Origin: Loxodes magnus
Lineage: Eukaryota; Ciliophora; Karyorelictea; Loxodida; Loxodidae
DNA: 64,000 nucleotides
Reading direction: 5' to 3'
NCBI GenBank assembly: GCA_946699065.1
Contig: CAMPDV010000064.1
Span: forward strand, 868,001-932,000
The notes beneath the pieces are model-generated. The model was not told where the DNA came from. It saw only the letters and a list, made by a program, of their open reading frames with translations, and ran no database searches. Shown here piece by piece: positions 1,763-63,916 of the stretch. The position numbers were made by a program, and so were the translations under genes. How positions within the stretch are numbered: the first letter of the stretch is position 1; each line of letters starts with the position of its first letter.

Positions 1763-4036
1763 TTAAAATTTAAAATTGCTACCTGTAAGGCTTTCGATTG
1801 TATCCAGGATAATTTTACAGCTTGAAGGTTTGTTTAATACTTAGCTCATTCCTACTTCTAAACATCTAGTTATGTCTTCTTCGGAGCTGTAGGCTGTATA
1901 TCCTAAAATAGGTTTCTTATATTATAGACTCTTCCTAATAAAATCAGTTGCTTATCACCCGTCCATAATAGGCATTTCGCAATCCATTGTAATTATATAA
2001 AACTCCTAGCAGCATTTACTTTTTTATTTCATTTCTACTATTTCTATAGCTTCCTTACCATCTTTTGCTTCACAAGTTTAGTATCCATTTGCTTTAAATA
2101 TTTCTACTAAAGAAAGTCTCACAAAATCAGAATCATCGACTACTAATACCTGCTTGCATAAACATACGGAGGAATTTTCATTTTCTGGAGTAGATTAACT
2201 TTAAATAGTTATCGAATAAGGACTTGAATCATTAATACCAAGATATGACTATCCTTAGGCTATTGATTCTTAGCTAGAAGTTGGAGATAAAATTTGACTT
2301 AAAGGAATTTGTAAAGATTTTAATATTTTTTACTTTTAGCTTGATACTTGTACTTTCTATTTTTATTCAAGTTCATTTACTGCTCTCACATAAAACTTTA
2401 CTCTAGTCCATTTCCATATTTGAGATTTTACTTTCAAATGCCTTCCACTCATTTATAGAGATATTTACTCAGCTAAGTATAATCCTATTCCTAAGCTTTA
2501 ACTTTGTTTATCATTTAAGTCGAAATCGAATAAATCTTATACCTTTAGAATTTACTTTTCAGACATTCCACATCCACTATCATGAACGGAAATCGAGTAC
2601 ATTTCATGGGGAACATCAATGAAATTGATCTCTTACTTTTTCCTACTCTTCTTTATTTTTAGCTATATAACTCCATATTTAGTGAACTTTACAGAGTTCA
2701 CTAACAAATGCTATAGAACAAAAATAACTCTTTGTTTATCAATGTTTAGTTACTTAGGAACGTTAGGTGCAATATTTATCTCCAAATTTATCTTTTTCTT
2801 TTTTGTTTGATGTTTTACCAAGGACAAAGCTTCTTATGCACATTATTACACATCTTAAGCTTCATATTAAAGGGTGTAGTTTTTCTTTTAAATTTCGAAA
2901 ATATCCTGCATCTATAATGAAATTAAGAGTAATTTAGAAACTTCTTTCTTTATAAATCTAATTTTTTTCTTGCAACTAATTAGGAGACTTTCGAACTTTT
3001 AGTTCTCCTAAATCACTAATTCAATCAAATCTCTTAGATTATTTAAAGTCTCCATAAGTCCAATTAATGGATGTCTTATCTCATGCTAAAAAGCTCTAAT
3101 GAATAAACTTTTAAATTTGTTTCCTATCATTTCTTTATAGAAAGTTTCAAATTCAGTCCATTCATACACATACAAAAGAGTTACGAATTCACTATTAGAG
3201 AGTATATTAACTGCTTTAACTTAAAAATACCTTGATTTATTAAACGATTGGTCTAACTCAACAACAATGTTTGCCTTCAATTTTTTATTTGCTTCTGAGT
3301 GTAAAAATTATGTAAAATCTAGCTAGAAATTTGAGTTTTGCCTTTTAATATACTCAGCTCGAAATAGAACATCTAAGATATTTTAATCTTTAAACATTCT
3401 ACTAGCTTGTTTACTTTTATAAATTACTTGCAAATCCTTTATTTTATAGCAAGCAACATTAGGTATTTTTGCTAAAAAATCCAATTTTTCTGCTTATATT
3501 TTTATCTAATTTTTCCCTTCGAATAGTTATTTCTACTCTCTTTCTTGTGTATAGATTTATTTCAGGATAAAGTATGTGAAAAGAGTCAAACTGATTTAGT
3601 TACAAATATCAAGCTTCTAAAAGTGACTATTGTGGAGGGCCAAACATCACCAAATCGATAAACTGATAAAAAATCAAATTTTTTGGAAATTAAATTATCT
3701 CACATTCATCTATGCAAACTATTAAGAAAAGGCTAGATAGATAAATGAAATTAGGTAATCTTAGTTAGTTTATAGCGAAATAAAGATTCCTTTGAAGTTC
3801 ATAAAAACGAAAATAGCAATTTAAATGTATTGTTAACTTCTTAAGTTCCTAGCTTGAAGATTTTGGAATGAAACCAAAATTAATAAAATTAAAGCTATCT
3901 CATTAATAAGGCTTTGAAAATTCCACTCATAGATGAAAACTTTTATTAGCCATATAATTAAGACTAAAGTGAAGATGAAATTTTTTTACTTCAAGTGATA
4001 CTTAGCTCTCTCAAGGTTAAGCATGCTATATTTCAT
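1763..4036 (-). CDS. Hybrid sensor histidine kinase/response regulator, copy A
   Basis: A two-component hybrid kinase of about 757 residues, probably in a membrane. The N-terminal ~190 residues hold several hydrophobic helices. A coiled linker follows, then an H-box (HEIRHPL, His near residue 318), a HATPase domain with N-box (VNSVKFT), G1 (DSGCGMS) and G2 (SLGIGLYL), and a C-terminal receiver with VVDDSD, phospho-acceptor Asp in MDCEMPIMDG and Lys in NKPS. The frame is intact from ATG to the receiver end only with TAA/TAG as Gln and TGA as Trp. TGA lies in the conserved MDG-W-QAT position (1955-1957), while YEW uses TGG (3158-3160). The end given is the first TAA after the receiver; no TGA occurs in frame for well over 100 codons beyond. 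Its mirror copy is at 25096. Confidence 0.85.
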
Positions 4037-7812: not shown

Positions 7813-9177
<1,365 letters not shown>

Positions 9178-9812: not shown

Positions 9813-9885
9813 GCCGGTTTAGCTCAGTCGGTAGAGCGCCAGCCTTTTAAGCTGGTGGTCAAGGGTTCAAGTCCCTTAGTCGGCG
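9813..9885 (+). tRNA. tRNA-Lys (anticodon UUU)
   Basis: A 73-nt cloverleaf. Acceptor GCCGGTT pairs with AGTCGGC, with discriminator G. The D arm contains AGCTCAGTCGGTAGAGC. The anticodon stem CCAGC/GCTGG encloses CTTTTAA, giving anticodon TTT. The T arm contains GGGTTCAAGTCCC. A TTTT run just downstream fits RNA polymerase III termination. An identical gene lies at 63844-63916 on the other strand. Confidence 0.97.
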
Positions 9886-11095
9886 CTTTTCTTTTAAAAA
9901 AATAATAATTTTATATATAATTTTTTTAAATATTTTCCTAATTTTATTTGAAAATATTTTATATAATATAAATTATATTAATTAAAAATATATTATTTAA
10001 GATTTATAAGCAAATAAAACTTAGTAATCAATTGAAAAATAATTTAATGTTAAAATAATAAAATCTATATACGTAATAAATAATTAATTAAGTATAAAAA
10101 TGCTTTTATCTCAGATAAATTTTGAAGAATTGATTAAGATATTCAGCTTTTTTCTAAAAAATTGAAGAGATTAATTTAAATTATTTAAATTGGTAACAAA
10201 TGAGAGCAGTAGCAATAATAAAATATATCTATCTCTTTAAGAAACGTAAGAACAGAAAAGAAAAGAAAAACTTGTTTTAATTTTTAAATATTTCTAAAAT
10301 TTAAATGAAATACAAAAAAATTTCTTCAGAATTTATTTAAAAAAATTGAATTCGCTTGAAAATATTTGAAGAAATAATTAAATAAATATAGTAAATAAAA
10401 TGACTAAAAAATTAAAAATTAAAATATGTATAATAAATTAACTTTTAGTTTATGAATTTCATTAATTTAATATTAAAAAGACAGCTATAAGCGTTTAATG
10501 GATGCATTCTTCAGCATCCAGTATCATTAGGATAAGAACACGACCTAGCTGAAGGATTAAGTTTGTTTAAAAAGATTCAGTAAAAGTTAATAAATATAAA
10601 AATAAAAATAAAAAACTATCAATTAAATATTAAAGTTTCTTTAATATTTTGGAATTAAAATAGATACAAAAATACATAATCAAATAAGTAAAATACTATC
10701 TAAAAGGATGAAATAAGTTAAAAAATTTAAAAAAATTTAAAGCATTTATTAGGCTTTAAAATTAAAATTGATTTAATTTCTAAAATTATAATATAAAACG
10801 CAATTAGAAAAATTTTAATTTAATTTTAATTTTTTTAATTTTTCATTTATTAAATAAATATACTTTTTAAAATAATTTTCTTAAATAATTTTAATTTAAT
10901 TTTTTATTCAAATTTATCGAAAATTATAATTTAAATTATTGTAATTATATTTTATCTCTACTGCTCACTATATATTTTTATTTCTCTTTAATAATTAATA
11001 TTTATTTTCAATTTATTATATTATATTATATTTTATTTTATTAATTCTGAATTAAATATAAATTAAAATTATCTTTTTTTAATATTAAGCTTATT
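9886..11095. other. AT-rich region with one small hairpin
   Basis: Mostly AT-rich. Around 10497-10565 composition is less biased, and TGGATGC ... GCATCCA forms a 7-bp stem nested near a CTTCAGC ... GCTGAAG pair. It could be a small structured RNA, but there is no family match. Otherwise I see nothing. Confidence 0.35.
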
Positions 11096-19922: not shown

Positions 19923-21287
<1,365 letters not shown>

Positions 21288-25095: not shown

Positions 25096-27369
25096 ATGAA
25101 ATATAGCATGTTTAACCTTGAGAGAGCTAAGTATCACTTGAAGTAAAAAAATTTCATCTTCACTTTAGTCTTAATTATATGGCTAATAAAAGTTTTTATC
25201 TACGAATGGAATTTTCAAAGCCTTATTAATGAGATAGCTTTAATTTTATTAATTTTGGTTTCATTCCAAAATCTTCAAGCTAGGAACTTAAGAAGTTAAC
25301 AATACATTTAAATTGCTATTTTCGTTTTTATGAACTGCAAAGGAATCTTTATTTCGCTATAAGTTAACTAAGATTACCTAATTTCATTTATCTATCTAGC
25401 CTTTTCTTAATAGTTTGCATAGATAAACGTGAGATAATTTAATTTACAAAAAATTTGATTTTTTATCAGTTTATCAATCTGGTGATGTTTAGCCCTCCAC
25501 AATAGTCACTTTTAGAAACTTGATATTTGTAACTAAATCAGCTTGGCTCTTTTCACATACTTTATCCTGAGACAAATCTATACACAAGAAAGAGAGTAGA
25601 AATAACTATTCGAAGCTAAAAATTAGATAAAAATATAAGCAGAAAAACTAGAACTTTTAGCAAAAATACCTAATGTTGCTTACTATAAAATAAAGGATCT
25701 ACAAATAATTTATAAAAGTAAACAAGCTAGTAGAATGTTTAAAAATTAGAATATTCTAGATGTTCTATTTCAAGCTGAGTATATTAAAAAATAGCACTCA
25801 AGTTTCTAGCTAGATTTTACAGAATTTTTACACTCAGAAACAAATAAAAAATTGAAAGCAAACATTGTCGTTGAGTTAGACCAATCGTTTAATAAATCAA
25901 GGTATTTTTAAGTTAAAGCAGTTAATATACTCTCTAATAATGAATTCGTAACTCTTTTGTACGTGTATGAATGAACTGAACTTGAAACTTTCTATAAAGA
26001 AATAATAGAAACCAAATTTAAAAGTTTATTCATTAGAGCTTTTTAGCATGAGATAAGACATCCTTTAATTGGACTTATGGAGACTTTAAATAATCTAAAA
26101 AATCTGATTGTACTAGCGATTTAGGAGAACTAAAAGTCTGAAAGTCAATTATCAAACTATAAGAATAAAATAAGAGTAATAAAGAAAGAAGTTTCTAAAT
26201 TACTCTTAATTTCATTATAGATGCAGGACATTTTCGAAATTTAAAAGAAAAGTTACACTCTCTAATACGAAGCGCAAGATGTATAAGAATGTGCATAGGA
26301 AGCTTTTTCATTGATAAAACATCAAACAAAAAAGAAAAAGATAAATTTAGAGTTAAATATTGCTCCTAACGTTCCTAAATAACTAAACATTGATAAGCAA
26401 AGAGTTATATACGTTCTATAACATCTGTTAGTGAATTCTGTAAAGTTCACTAAATGTGGACTTATTTAACTAAAGATAAAGAAGAGTAGGAAAAAGTAAG
26501 AGATTAATTTCATCGATGTTCCCCATGAAATGTACTCGATTTCCATTCATGATAGTGGATGTGGAATGTCTGAAAAGTAAATATCGAAGGTCTCAAATTT
26601 ATTCAATTTCAACTTAGATGATAATTAAAATTAAAGCTTAGGAATAGGATTATACTTAGCTGAGTAAATATCTCTATAAATGAGTGGAAGGCATTTGAAA
26701 GTAAAATCTCAAATATGGAAATGGACTAGAGTAAAGTTTTATGTGAGAGCAGTAAATGAACTTGAATAAAAATAGAAAGTACAAGTATCAAGCTAAAAAA
26801 TATTAAAATCTATTCAAATTCCTTTAAGTCAAATTTTATCTCCAACTTCAAGTTAAGAATCAATAGAATACGAATAGCCGAATTCTGCTGCTTATGATTC
26901 AAGTCCTTATTCGATAAATACTACAAGTTAATCTAATCCAGAAAATGAAAGTTTCTCGGGATGCCAATGCAAATAGGTATTAGTAGTTGATGATTCTGAT
27001 TTTGTTAGATATTCTTTAGTAGAAATATTTTAAGCAAATGGATATTAAACTTGTGAAGCAAAAGATGGTAAGGAAGCGATAGAACTAGTGCAAAAGAAAT
27101 AAAAAAATAAATGCTGCTAGGAGTTTTATATAATTACAATGGATTGCGAAATGCCTATTATGGACGGGTGATAAGCAACTGATTTTATTAGGAAGAGTCT
27201 ATAATATAAAAAGCCTATTTTAGGATATACAGCCTACAGCTCCGAAGAAGACATAACTAGATGTTTAGAAGTAGGAATGAGCTAAGTATTAAACAAACCT
27301 TCAAGCTGTAAAATTATCCTGGATACTATCAAAAGCCTTACAGGCTGTAATGTTCTTTTTAACAATTAA
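25096..27369 (+). CDS. Hybrid sensor histidine kinase/response regulator, copy B
   Basis: Mirror copy of the gene at 1763-4036, also about 757 residues, starting MKYSMFNLERAKYHL. Hydrophobic helices span roughly residues 20-190 (FTLVLIIWLIKVF, IALILLILVSF, WFFISLSIWWCLA). H-box His is near 318, N-box Asn near 447, G1 Asp near 486, G2 near 516, receiver from about 625 with acceptor Asp near 683. TGA encodes Trp at YEW (25972-25974; TGG in copy A) and at MDG-W (27169-27171). Autophosphorylation on His with phosphotransfer to the receiver Asp is expected from the family; the signal sensed is unknown. The end given is a TAA; no TGA follows in frame for more than 100 codons. Flank similarity to copy A drops at this 3' end. 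Confidence 0.85.
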
Positions 27370-28317
27370 ATTTAATAAAAGGCAATATATTTAAGAATGT
27401 TTAAATTAAAAAAATAAATATTTATTGATAAATATTGCTATATATTAAAAATATATTTATTATATTTACATAATATCTTACTAATAATTTTATAATATCA
27501 CATTTAATAAAATAAATATTCAGAAAATATAAATATAAATAGAGGTATAAATTTATATAAATTGTATATTAATTTAAAGATCACAAGATTAATGTTTTAT
27601 TTTATGAATCAAATAAATAAAATTTTAATAAAAGAGTTTATAATAATTAAAATTATTCTAGATTTAATAAAAATCATTCTAACTATATTAAATAAATTTA
27701 AATATTGCTAATTTTATTCAACAAATAAAAAAATTATTATCTATATGCTTAAAGAAAAAAGATAAAGAAAAAAATGTAAATAAATGTAAAATTTATAATG
27801 AATTTAATAATTTTAATACATATTAACTCTTAAAAATAATTAAACTATTTTAAAATTTAATTTCTTTTTACTTCATACTTATCAAAGAAAAAACTATAGA
27901 AATTTAAAATTTAAATATTAAAATTATAATTAAAAACAGAAAAAGTGGAAAATGTTATATTTAAATTTATTAGAATGAAATTTGTAGAGAAAGAATAGAA
28001 ATAAAGTTTAATTGAATATTTATTCTTAAAAGTAATCAAAAATAAATAGTACACTTATAAATTTTTTAATTTAAATAAAGTTATAAAATGATTTATATAA
28101 TAACTTTAATATACTATTTAATAAAAAGCTACTATTCTTTTTGTTAAAGCTATATTTAAATTAAGATTCTATTCTTATATTATGAAAATCTATTTCCTTA
28201 GATAGCTAAATTGATTTGTATAATTAAATTTTGAATAATTTCAGGATAATAAAACTTGTAAAATAAAATATAAAGGAAAGATTTAAATCATGGAAATAAT
28301 TAAAATAAATAAATAAA

Positions 28318-34233: not shown

Positions 34234-36503
34234 ATGAAGTTTAAAATGTTCCTTCAGAGTAGATATGAACTATAGGCTAATTAAATGCAGGTTCCCTTCG
34301 TTTTAGTTGCGGCCTTTTGAATGGTAAAAATTTTTTAACGTGAGAGAAACTATCAAAATAGTATTTTTGAGTTGGCTTTTACATGAATATTTCTAGGCTG
34401 TCTTTACATCAACAAAAAAAGAAATTTAATAAATTAACAGGTTCTATTAGTTACATTATATGTGCTTATGAATCTAAAAGGAATCTATATTGCATATTAA
34501 ATGGATTAGAATTTTATGCTAGCCTTTATCTATTTAGCTCTTTCTTAGTAGTTTGCCCACTTGAACGAGAAATAATTTAACTACTAAAATGCTATATTTT
34601 TTATCAGTTTATCAATCTGGTGAAGTTTAGCCCTCCATAATAGTCACTTTTAGGAACTTGATATTTGTAACTAAATCAGTTTGGCTCTTTTCACATACTT
34701 TATCCTGAGACAAATCTATACACAAAAAGAGAGTAGAAATAACTATTCGAAGCTAAAAATTAGATAAAAATATAAGCAGAAAAACTAGAACTTTTAGCAA
34801 AAATACCTAATGTTGCTTACTATAAAATAAAGGATCTACAAATAATTTATAAAAGTAAACAAGCTAGTAGAATGTTTAAAGATTAGAATATTCTAGATGT
34901 TCTATTTCAAGCTGAGTATATTAAAAAATAGCACTCAAGTTTCTAGCTTGATTTTACATAATTTTTACACTCAGAAACAAATAAAAAATTGAAAGCAAAC
35001 ATTGTCGTTGAGTTAGACCAATCGTTTAATAAATCAAGGTATTTTTAAGTTAAAGCAGTTAATATACTCTCTAATAATGAATTCGTAACTCTTTTGTATG
35101 TGTATGAATGAACTGAACTTGAAACTTTCTATAAAGAAATAATAGAAACCAAATTTAAAAGTTTATTCATAAGAGCTTTTTAGCATGAGATAAGACATCC
35201 TTTAATTGGACTTATGGAGACTTTAAATAATCTAAAAAATCTGATTGTACTAGCGATTTAGGAGAACTAAAAGTCTGAAAGTCAATTATCAAACTATAAG
35301 AATAAAATAAGAGTAATAAAGAAAGAAGTTTCTAAATTACTCTTAATTTCATTATAGATGCAGGACATTTTCGAAATTTAAAAGAAAAGTTACACTCTCT
35401 AATACGAAGCGCAAGATGTATAAGAATGTGCATAAGAAGCTTTTTCATTGATAAAACATCAAACAAAAAAGAAAAAGATAAATTTAGAGTTAAATATTGC
35501 TCCTAACGTTCCTAAATAACTAAACATTGATAAGCAAAGAGTTATATACGTTCTATAACATCTGTTAGTGAATTCTGTAAAGTTCACTAAATGTGGACTT
35601 ATTTAACTAAAGATAAAGAAGAGTAGGAAAAAGTAAGAGATTAATTTTATCGATGTTCCCCATGAAATGTACTCGATTTCCATTCATGATAGTGGATGTG
35701 GAATGTCTGAAAAGTAAATATCGAAGGTCTCAAATTTATTCAATTTCAACTTAGATGATAATTAAAATTAAAGCCTTGGAATAGGATTATACTTAGCTGA
35801 GTAAATATCTCTATAAATGAGTGGAAGGCATTTGAAAGTAAAATCTCAAATATGGAAATGGACTAGAGTAAAGTTTTATGTGAGAGCAGTAAATGAACTT
35901 GAATAAAAATAGAAAGTACAAGTATCAAGCTAAAAAATATTAAAATCTATTCAAATTCCTTTAAGTCAAATTTTATCTCCAACTTCAAGTTAAGAATCAA
36001 TAGAATACGAATAGCCGAATTCTGCTGCTTATGATTCAAGTCCTTATTCGATAAATACTACAAGTTAATCTAATCCAGAAAATGAAAGTTTCTCGGGATG
36101 CCAATGCAAATAGGTATTAGTAGTTGATGATTCTGATTTTGTTAGATATTCTTTAGTAGAAATATTTTAAGCAAATGGATATTAAACTTGTGAAGCAAAA
36201 GATGGTAAGGAAGCGATAGAACTAGTGTAAAAGAAATAGAAAAATAAATGCTGCTAGGAGTTTTATATAATTACAATGGATTGCGAAATGCCTATTATGG
36301 ACGGGTGATAAGCAACTGATTTTATTAGGAAGAGTCTATAATATAAAAAGCCTATTTTAGGATATACAGCCTACAGCTCCGAAGAAGACATAACTAGATG
36401 TTTAGAAGTAGGAATGAGCTAAGTATTAAACAAACCCTCAAGCTGTAAACTTATCCTGGATACTATCAAAAACCTAAAAAAAGGGCTTACTAGCGATGAA
36501 TGA
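34234..36503 (+). pseudogene. Hybrid histidine kinase copy C, one frameshift
   Basis: Third kinase gene, ATG at 34234, ending at TGA 36501-36503 after GLTSDE. The first ~120 residues (MKFKMFLQSRYELQA; VPFVLVAAFWMVKIF; LMNLKGIYIAYQMD) are clearly homologous to copies A/B but strongly diverged. From about 34600 to 36470 the DNA is nearly identical to copy B. Near 34724 copy C has cacaaaaagagag where A and B have cacaagaaagagag, a 1-nt loss that shifts the frame just after the membrane region. All H, N, G1, G2 and receiver motifs are intact downstream. TGA = Trp at YEW (35109-35111) and MDG-W (36306-36308). Either a recent pseudogene or a sequencing error. Confidence 0.8.
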
Positions 36504-43961: not shown

Positions 43962-45326
<1,365 letters not shown>

Positions 45327-53729: not shown

Positions 53730-56501
53730 TCACTATAGTTTATAAAATATTTCTTTAATATCAAAACTAATTTCTTTCTCTTGTAAATTTTGTTCTTAAT
53801 TTTCTACAAAAACTTTTAATTTCTTAAAGCTTTATTTAAAATTATTGAGCTGATAAATTAATTTCTACTTTTGACTTTCTAGTTTAAGTTGTTTTAAGTT
53901 ACTAATATATTAATATTGATTTTTTTTGGTATAATTAGAAAAAGCATTTTCGGTAATTTCGCTAGCTCTTCCCAAATCTAGTATTTCTAAGTTATAGCAT
54001 TTTTATAATATTAGAATAATATCATCATTAACCAATTTAACATCTTAAAATTGTAAGTATTTTAGATGTTAAATGCTCACTATTCATTGTGTATGTTTCA
54101 CACTAAAATCTCGAAATCCACCTAAGCTTATACTTTCTAGCTTTTAGCAATATTAATTCATATATTTGAAAGTTTCGATACTTAATGTCTAGATATTATG
54201 AAGTTCTATTTTTTTCAAATTAACGCATTATTTTATAATCGCTCTTAAACTATCATCTTCTAGCTGAGGTAGTTCCCTTAAACTAATTTGCTAGTACTTC
54301 TATCCATAATTAGCTATAGCTAGTAAAGCTTTATTATTAAGTGAGCTCAATTACTATAGATGAATGGATAACAAATTTGGCGTGCTTTGTAGCAATTAAT
54401 TTAAATTTGAATCATTAAAAAATGAGCAGTTACTAATACTAACTTGTTATAGTTTGGGATATTATTAAGACATAAAATTTGAAAGTGCTTAATCAGTAAA
54501 ATTCCCTTTTAATTTTAAATCTAGCAGATTTAGTCCTTTTATCTTATATAATATGTAGCTCTGATTAACTTTAATTTGCAAGTCAATTTTTTATAAATTA
54601 GGACATAACTAAATATAGGCTTCAATATCCTCATTTTAGTTTATTCAAATTTCTTATAGTTGATTTCCTTTGATTAATAAGAAGTGCTCAATGAACTTTT
54701 ATTCTATCTACTAACTTTCTATCTTCAAATAAATCAAATTTAAATCTGTACAAAACATTGTAAGAAAGCTTCCCGTTACTCTTGATAAGTTATTGTCTTA
54801 GAAGAAGTTTTTAAATTCAAAAGATTCTAGTTTTGCGCATCTTTTTAGAAATCACAAGTCTTCATCAAAATATTATCCATGCAGAACCAATTTTCTCAAA
54901 TTAGAGAAAGGTAAGCAAGAAGGAATGAGAAACTAATTCGTATAGCAGTATAATTGTAATTCATATAAGGATTCTTGATTCTAATATTTTAAATTAAGTC
55001 ATTACTTCACTAAAAAGCTTTTACATAATATTAAATGAAACTATTCAAGCAAATCACTTGAAAAATATTTGGTATCAATTATAATTTTTCTAGTAAAACA
55101 GTGAGAAATTTACTTCAACCCTCAAGTGAGTTTTGATTTGAAGTTGTCAGCATAACTCTCTTTAAATTTTATAGAAAGCGAAATAAATGAATAGTTGTAA
55201 TAATAAAAAAACCTGCTAGTGGATTATAAATTGCAAATGCTTTTAAGGTTTAGGAATTTTAAGATGTTTGAAGTAATTCATTTACTTTACTTAAATATAA
55301 GCAGATTCTTGCTTACATTTGGAATTTACTCACTATAGAACTATTGAAATTAATTTTTTTAGCATGAAAAAAACTAACCATCGTATATTCTTCCATCAAA
55401 AAAGCTATAAATCCCAGTAAAATCTATTTATCCATTAATAAATTGGCCTTCATATTTGTCTTTATTATTATAAATGAAAACTCCTTGTCCATTTTATTTG
55501 CTATTCTATCACATTCCATCATATTTTTCGCTATTCTAATAAATCATAATCCCAATGCCTTGTCTTTTATCATTTAAAAATTATCCTTCATATTTATCTC
55601 CATTCTTAAACAGAAAAAGACCATTTCCATTCTTTTAATCATTTTAAAATTCTCCTTCATAAACTTATCCATCATTATATAGTAAAATTCCTTTTTCTAT
55701 TCTTTTTCCCTTTTAAATTTTTCCCTCATAAGTATTCCCATTTTAATATTTTATTAATCCTTATCCAGAAAATATGATTTCATTTTTTCATTTTCCTTCT
55801 AATGTCTTTCCATCGCTATAATACAATATACCCTAGCCATGTTTTGAACCTCAATTAAATTCACCTATGTATTTATCACCGTTTGGGTATATTAAAATTC
55901 CTTTACCATTAAAAAAATTTTACTTCCACTGTCCATCGTAAGATTTGTTATCAGTAAAAAACATTTTGCCTTATCCATGCTTTCCATTATTAATAAATTG
56001 CCCTACATATTTATATTTGCTATATTAAATTTCAATTCCCTATCCATTTCATTAATCATTTCTTCATTCTCCATCATATTAACCGTATTTAAAATAAAAA
56101 ATCCCTTTTCCTTCCCTTTTACCATTTTTAAAATATCCAACATATTTTTCGTCACTTTAATATTCTAAAGTTCCATATCCATTATACTTATTCTATTATC
56201 ACTCCCCTTAATAAATTCTTCCGTCTTTATATATCAATACTCCCCAACCATTTTTTTAGTTGTTTACAAAATTACCTTCATATTTATCCCCATTCTTATA
56301 ATTATAAACTCCTTTCCCATTTTAAGCATCATATTACCATTCTCCTTCATAAATTCCTCCATCACTGAAATATTAAATTCCAGTACCTTCTCTTTAGCAT
56401 TATTTTACTTATCCTATATATTTATCTCCATTATTATAAACCTTAATCTCTTTATTTTTCTACATATTATAATTTTAGCCAATATAAGCATTTAAATGCA
56501 T
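53730..56501 (-). CDS. MORN-repeat / F-box-like / leucine-rich-repeat protein
   Basis: A single 924-codon frame with no intron. Residues ~15-380 are about 16 MORN repeats (YEGEWQY, YDGQWKQ, YEGQFLN with GxG between). Around 400-435 is a probable F-box (SKWITSNILKFLNLKSI; STSRFFYYYN). Residues ~480-900 are AMN1-type leucine-rich repeats (CPNLQKIDL, CVNLKKIEL, CQKLESISLGG, YNLEILDLG). The frame needs TAA/TAG as Gln throughout and 11 TGA as Trp. Four of these fill the aromatic position of the MORN motif (56199, 56064, 55788, 55509), where other repeats use TGG. The start is ATG in MHLNAYIG; the stop is TGA 53730-53732, preceded by TAG. MORN repeats suggest a membrane or scaffold role, F-box/LRR suggests an SCF-type ubiquitin adaptor; the combination's function is unknown. 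Confidence 0.88.
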
Positions 56502-63843: not shown

Positions 63844-63916
63844 CGCCGACTAAGGGACTTGAACCCTTGACCACCAGCTTAAAAGGCTGGCGCTCTACCG
63901 ACTGAGCTAAACCGGC
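63844..63916 (-). tRNA. tRNA-Lys (anticodon UUU), second copy
   Basis: The 73-nt sequence is the exact reverse complement of the gene at 9813-9885, with anticodon TTT in loop CTTTTAA. It is followed on the minus strand by a T-run (TTTTTGTCTTTTT), a Pol III terminator. Flanks beyond a few bases differ from copy 1. Confidence 0.97.

Follow-up and report, generated by a model that had tools for sequence, protein, structure and literature searches.

Sequence evidence for TGA as both tryptophan and stop codon in a macronuclear region of Loxodes magnus

The MORN-repeat gene

The window, by which we mean the whole 64,000-nt stretch of Loxodes magnus DNA analysed here, carries a long MORN-repeat gene on its minus strand. 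The frame from 56501 to 53730 runs unbroken for 924 codons when TAA, TAG and TGA are all read as residues, and no frameshift was seen in it. The features of the gene are:

53730..56501, minus strand: MORN-repeat gene with an LRR-like C-terminal half, 923 aa under table 27, terminal TGA included in the span
53730..53732, minus strand: terminal TGA, the probable stop of the gene, from the frame and a fall in GC
56199..56201, minus strand: TGA at YQGE-W of a MORN repeat
56064..56066, minus strand: TGA at YDGE-W of a MORN repeat
55788..55790, minus strand: TGA at LEGK-W of a MORN repeat
55509..55511, minus strand: TGA at YDGM-W of a MORN repeat

The frame, its coordinates and these motifs are as a sequence-only reading of the window had described them, except that the eleven TGA codons it counted are in fact 12 internal ones and a terminal one. 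The gene thus has 13 TGA codons along with 3 TGG, 53 TAA, 20 TAG, 19 CAA and 4 CAG, and translation with table 27 gives 12 TGA as Trp and 73 TAA/TAG as Gln. TGA accounts for 12 of the 15 Trp codons, and 168 of the 215 other A- or G-ending codons of the gene end in A.

The raw number of TGA codons was rejected as evidence, because 12 in 923 codons is not low relative to the other frames. The coding frame has 13 including the end, and the other five have 12, 40, 11, 12 and 10. As the count resembles that of the other frames, the evidence lies in the positions of the TGA codons and not in their number. The gene contains 13 strict YxGx motifs, and the codon that follows is TTT in six, TGA in four, TGG in two and GTA in one. 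Four of the six TGA codons in the MORN half (codons 1–351) fall on these 13 positions (hypergeometric p ∼1.7e-5). The two TGG codons occupy the same aromatic place in the sister repeats YEGE- (codon 55) and YDGQ- (codon 192). It had been claimed that TGA occurs exactly where the motif needs an aromatic residue, with TGG there in sister repeats. This holds for the four named sites and for the TGG codons, but the other two TGA codons of the MORN half (codons 151 and 217) lie off the motif position, elsewhere within a repeat, six further ones lie in the C-terminal half, and the motif position is also filled by Phe (TTT) in 6 of the 13 motifs.

The domain content was assessed with Pfam, as had been proposed for the MORN, F-box and LRR families. 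The MORN model matched with an E-value of 6e-48 and the LRR model weakly, at 30.8 bits against a cut-off of 27, in the C-terminal half, while the F-box model had no match on the protein itself. A homolog search with residues 400–923 alone as the query, in which only the 7989 candidates with the most shared words were scored, returned four proteins with 22–28% identity over 19–28% of the query, three of which carry F-box and LRR models. These homologs are too weak for judging single TGA sites in the C-terminal half.

Tryptophan and glutamine sites in conserved sequences

Three histidine kinase paralogs in the window allow the codons to be compared site by site. They are:

1796..3541, minus strand: HK1, histidine kinase / response regulator paralog; Trp of VYE-W-TEF is TGG; receiver-domain TGA at 1955–1957
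25591..27330, plus strand: HK2, paralog; same Trp site is TGA; receiver-domain TGA at 27169–27171
34728..36467, plus strand: HK3, paralog; same Trp site is TGA; receiver-domain TGA at 36306–36308

Pfam was run on HK2 and on part of HK1. At the VYE-W-TEF site the flanks are nearly identical, with TGG in HK1 and TGA in HK2 and HK3. All three paralogs also have a TGA inside the receiver domain, with conserved sequence kept beyond it. Overall, the dN/dS ratio of HK1 was 0.247 against HK2 and 0.231 against HK3. Between the two TGA sites the corresponding values were 0.268 and 0.255, and over the final 54 codons, which begin at the receiver-domain TGA, they were 0 and 0.061. As dN/dS is low beyond the TGA codons, we conclude that selection acts on the protein made past them. 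At four aligned Gln sites of HK1 and HK2, one paralog has CAA or CAG where the other has TAA or TAG, with a one-base difference at three sites and a two-base difference at the fourth; six sites pair TAA with another residue (Glu twice, Ser, Tyr, Thr and Lys).

A fourth histidine kinase paralog lies directly left of the window (L017:3576-5348) and has TGA at the site that is TGG in HK1. The tubulin and histidine kinase copies are carried on inverted duplications, one of 3800 nt with 99% identity (5536-9335/19765-23564), and further ones of 2082 nt with 94% (2334-4415/24717-26798) and 1495 nt with 99% (7695-9189/43950-45444). The tubulin/histidine kinase stretch is a repeatedly copied block.

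To extend the comparison beyond the window we searched the genome (705,730,643 bases in 7843 contigs) with the MORN model and extracted MORN-rich stretches. The search reportedly reads through stop codons, and the choice of loci by the MORN model should for that reason not favor TGA. The tally comprises 255 distinct MORN repeats from 19 of the 28 extracted loci and from the window; left out were seven small loci that lie inside larger ones (L001–L003 and L005–L008) and the two window flanks, which were taken for other purposes (L017 and L018). In these repeats 111 of the 123 TGA codons fall in columns 5 and 18, the two Trp columns, as do 153 of the 160 TGG codons, with 12 TGA codons outside both columns. 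TGA in columns 5 or 18 is present in 18 of the 19 loci as well as in the window, and TGA makes up 123 of the 283 TGA and TGG codons.

The codons were also scored against the column profiles of the 20 amino acids. For TGA the best profile was Trp, with a fit per codon of −1.47, followed by Phe (−1.93), Cys (−2.72) and Tyr (−2.78). Gln was the best profile for the 230 TAA and the 25 TAG codons. The control set comprised the sense codons counted 20 times or more, 40 in all. For 36 of them a score against the profile of their own amino acid was possible; for ATG, CAA, CCA and TGG it was not. Deprived of its own profile, TGG fits Phe, the other aromatic residue of those columns. The control assigned 28 of the 36 codons to their own amino acid and misassigned eight (AAC, ACT, AGG, AGT, ATA, CTA, TTA and TTG), so the method is imperfect.

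Several other conserved genes carry TGA in their frames. A coding-score scan of the window mostly re-found its own training genes, and a second version of the scan served solely to pick segments in other loci. In a MAP kinase gene (L021) TGA codons are found at TR-W-YRAPE and VDM-W-SVGC (residues 219 and 239), where all three PDB MAP kinases compared have Trp, and these two of its seven TGA codons were counted as support. The TGA at residue 114 corresponds to Tyr in all three PDB matches and lies just before a poorly aligned stretch; those at 153, 156 and 170 lie within that stretch, which may hold an intron, and the one at 369 is beyond the alignment. In the gene for the exosome subunit RRP4 (L013) the TGA at residue 163 corresponds to Trp in all three PDB RRP4 chains compared, and the second, at 238, is beyond the aligned part.

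The TGA codons of two further genes were excluded from the support. In an isoaspartyl peptidase gene (L016) the three matches compared have Tyr, Ile and Arg opposite the TGA at residue 146, and the other seven TGA codons are outside the aligned part; the TGA after VSIFED may be its stop. In a methylisocitrate-lyase-like gene (L023) the first TGA, at residue 188, is at the edge of the match, with a gap in the first match and Phe in the second, and the other three are beyond it. Solved enzymes match this gene (L023:9060-9863) only up to about residue 190 of 268, and the remainder may be an intron or lie in another frame.

Kinase motifs were scanned as well. The codon preceding xAPEL is TGA in four kinase-like genes, three of which are alike. 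The xAPE scan had six matches in all, four with TGA, one with TAT (the Tyr after the MAP kinase TGA) and one with CAA in a stretch not recognised as a kinase. A scan for DxWSxG had five matches, with TGA, TGG, TTT (twice) and TAT; a kinase-like stretch has TGG at DVWSYG. The kinase-like genes (L009, L011, L012, L015 and L028) were named by eye. Judged by eye from the translations, kinase-like domains share one frame with long MORN arrays at L009:1701-3872 and L015:2500-6273, and similar kinase motifs and MORN arrays are found at L011 and L012.

Gene ends and tRNAs

The window contains three alpha-tubulin copies:

7813..9177, plus strand: alpha-tubulin copy 1, ends at TGA; named by eye from the sequence
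19923..21287, minus strand: alpha-tubulin copy 2, ends at TGA
43962..45326, minus strand: alpha-tubulin copy 3, ends at TGA; its three Trp codons are all TGG

A fourth copy was found beside the window, and all four copies found end at TGA with the same C-terminus, which bears out and extends the earlier statement that tubulin in the window ends at TGA. Because the copies are near-identical, they count as one gene in effect, and tubulin is the only gene whose end is fixed independently. The few gene ends that could be placed include none at TAA or TAG. At the end of the MORN-repeat gene the GC content falls from 0.197 in the 300 nt upstream to 0.117 in the 60 nt downstream. A TGA stop is plausible there and fits, though it is an assumption based on the frame and the drop in GC. 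At the four window ends inspected, those of the three tubulin copies and of the MORN-repeat gene, GC drops after the stop, and the final 25 codons contain no further TGA.

The 3′ ends of HK1 and HK2 have another appearance. No in-frame TGA occurs soon after the receiver domain in 1650-1796 (HK1) or 27330-27480 (HK2). Counting from the receiver motif MPIMDG, HK1 reaches its next in-frame TGA after 209 residues and HK2 after 216, vs. 71 in HK3, and TAA codons are found 5 and 7 codons past the shared SLTG in HK1 and HK2. This may be due to short introns, to the use of TAA as a stop or to 3′-end decay. If a 35-nt GT...AG stretch at 27347 is omitted, the HK2 frame ends at a TGA 15 residues on. This stretch would then be a candidate intron, longer than most introns of L. 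magnus, 93% of which are reported to be at most 25 bp (PMC11441545).

ARAGORN detected two tRNA-Lys (TTT) genes in the window, at 9813-9886 (plus strand) and 63844-63916 (minus strand), as the sole tRNAs there, and found no tRNA in the 28 loci. The absence of a tRNA with a UCA anticodon is in any case a poor refutation test for UGA as Trp. For Loxodes a tRNA-Trp(CCA) with a 4-bp anticodon stem is reported, in which the top pair of the stem is unpaired, and nuclear tRNA-Trp(UCA) is described as absent (PMC13092985).

The genetic code and its alternatives

Taken together, the sequences support TGA as both Trp and stop, with TAA and TAG as Gln, in the window and in the 19 other loci taken for their MORN repeats. 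This is what the sequence-only reading had proposed, and the MORN columns, the histidine kinase paralogs, the MAP kinase, RRP4 and the tubulin ends agree with it. The codon meanings are observed here through position in conserved proteins and substitution between paralogs. In translation, UAA and UAG would be Gln, and UGA would be Trp within coding sequences and, close to the mRNA 3′ end, the sole stop; following published work, stop and sense would be told apart by nearness to the poly-A tail together with a short 3′-UTR. The dual code has already been published for L. magnus, including its context dependence and a dedicated gene finder, in a study that presents a macronuclear assembly of 706 Mbp (PMC11441545). 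According to the same source, karyorelicts including Loxodes use table 27, with UGA as the only stop and also as Trp when far enough from the poly-A tail; the median 3′-UTR of L. magnus is 41 bp, UGA and UAA are depleted before the stop, and the gene finder was built for the table 27 code. The karyorelict code was described for Parduczia (PMC4967479). The sequence-only reading had left the choice between tables 27 and 28 open. Table 27 fits, because tubulin ends at TGA, the end of the MORN-repeat gene is plausible and UGA is published as the only stop. Table 28 is not needed, although the gene ends placed here would by themselves fit either table.

The nuclear code of Blepharisma also reads UGA as Trp, as here; its TAA and TAG codons remain stops, whereas they are Gln here. 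Table 27 as given for Parduczia and Loxodes has the same assignments, TAA/TAG as Gln and TGA as Trp and stop (PMC4967479, PMC11441545), and the AT-rich sequence past the stop and the lack of TGA over the final 25 codons of the four genes whose ends were inspected resemble it further; the tests made here gave no difference. Mean UGA usage in Parduczia is quoted as 0.120% of codons (PMC4967479), against which our 12 of 15 Trp codons refers to one gene and not to a genome mean. Table 28, of Condylostoma magnum, likewise has all three standard stops translated and UGA as Trp and stop (PMC4967479), and differs in the TAA/TAG gene ends, none of which was identified here among the few ends that could be placed. 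In the nonstop code of Blastocrithidia the three stops are reassigned as well and UGA is Trp (PMC12153298, PMC13092985), read by a tRNA-Trp(CCA) with a 4-bp stem according to one report (PMC13092985); UAA and UAG are Glu in that code and UAA is also the stop, whereas here UAA/UAG are Gln and UGA is the stop.

We are highly confident that the window is L. magnus macronuclear DNA using table 27. Its MORN-repeat gene is most likely an ordinary one, in which 12 UGA codons encode Trp and the terminal UGA is the stop. A Condylostoma-like code, in which TAA and TAG would end genes besides TGA, is very improbable. It would accommodate the late TGA after MPIMDG in HK1 and HK2 relative to HK3 and the TAA codons beyond SLTG, and it draws on tubulin being the only independently fixed end. 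Those same tubulin copies end at TGA, however, UGA is called the only stop in L. magnus (PMC11441545), and the candidate intron at 27347, despite its length, would take HK2 to a TGA. Still less probable is a Tetrahymena-like code (table 6) with a decayed gene, in which each TGA codon would be a genuine premature stop and the gene a pseudogene. In favor of this, no close homolog of the gene's C-terminal half was found among the candidates scored, and the TGA count is near that of the other frames. These points are outweighed by TGA on the Trp sites of the MAP kinase and RRP4 and before xAPEL in the kinase-like genes, by TGA in the MORN Trp columns of 18 of the 19 loci, by the purifying selection past the TGA codons of the histidine kinase paralogs and by a 924-codon frame in which no frameshift was seen. 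The paralogs, the MORN columns, the MAP kinase and RRP4 all use TGA as more than a stop, and table 6 is already refuted for the genome as a whole.

That TGA encodes another residue such as Cys or selenocysteine, or is subject to programmed readthrough in a few genes, we consider scarcely credible. UGA does also encode selenocysteine in Condylostoma and Parduczia (PMC4967479), but in the MORN repeats Trp is a better fit than Phe, Cys or Tyr, TGA replaces TGG at one site of the histidine kinase paralogs, and TGA-Trp is found in unrelated genes. Editing of TGA to TGG in the mRNA is compatible with genomic DNA taken alone and is just as hard to credit: very many sites would presumably need it, and in Condylostoma mass spectrometry finds Trp at UGA and ribosome footprints span a transcript with an in-frame UGA (PMC4967479).

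It is a genuine curiosity that one codon should serve as both stop and sense, and gene calling with the standard or the Tetrahymena code breaks down on it, as the sequence-only reading had foreseen. The value of the present analysis is that of an independent check from raw sequence, in which the conserved Trp sites, the substitutions between paralogs and the MORN columns all point the same way. A limited literature search on this code found no statement of such heavy use of TGA for Trp in a gene (12 of 15). Tentatively, UGA might be a near-neutral Trp codon in many L. magnus genes that is kept out of the highly expressed ones, since it makes up 12 of 15 Trp codons in the MORN-repeat gene (close to the A-ending share of 168 of 215), 123 of 283 in the MORN repeats and none of three in tubulin; we would sooner doubt this than rely on it. 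If this pattern held across the whole genome, Loxodes would decode UGA much more efficiently than one would expect from the low mean usage of that codon quoted for Parduczia and Condylostoma.
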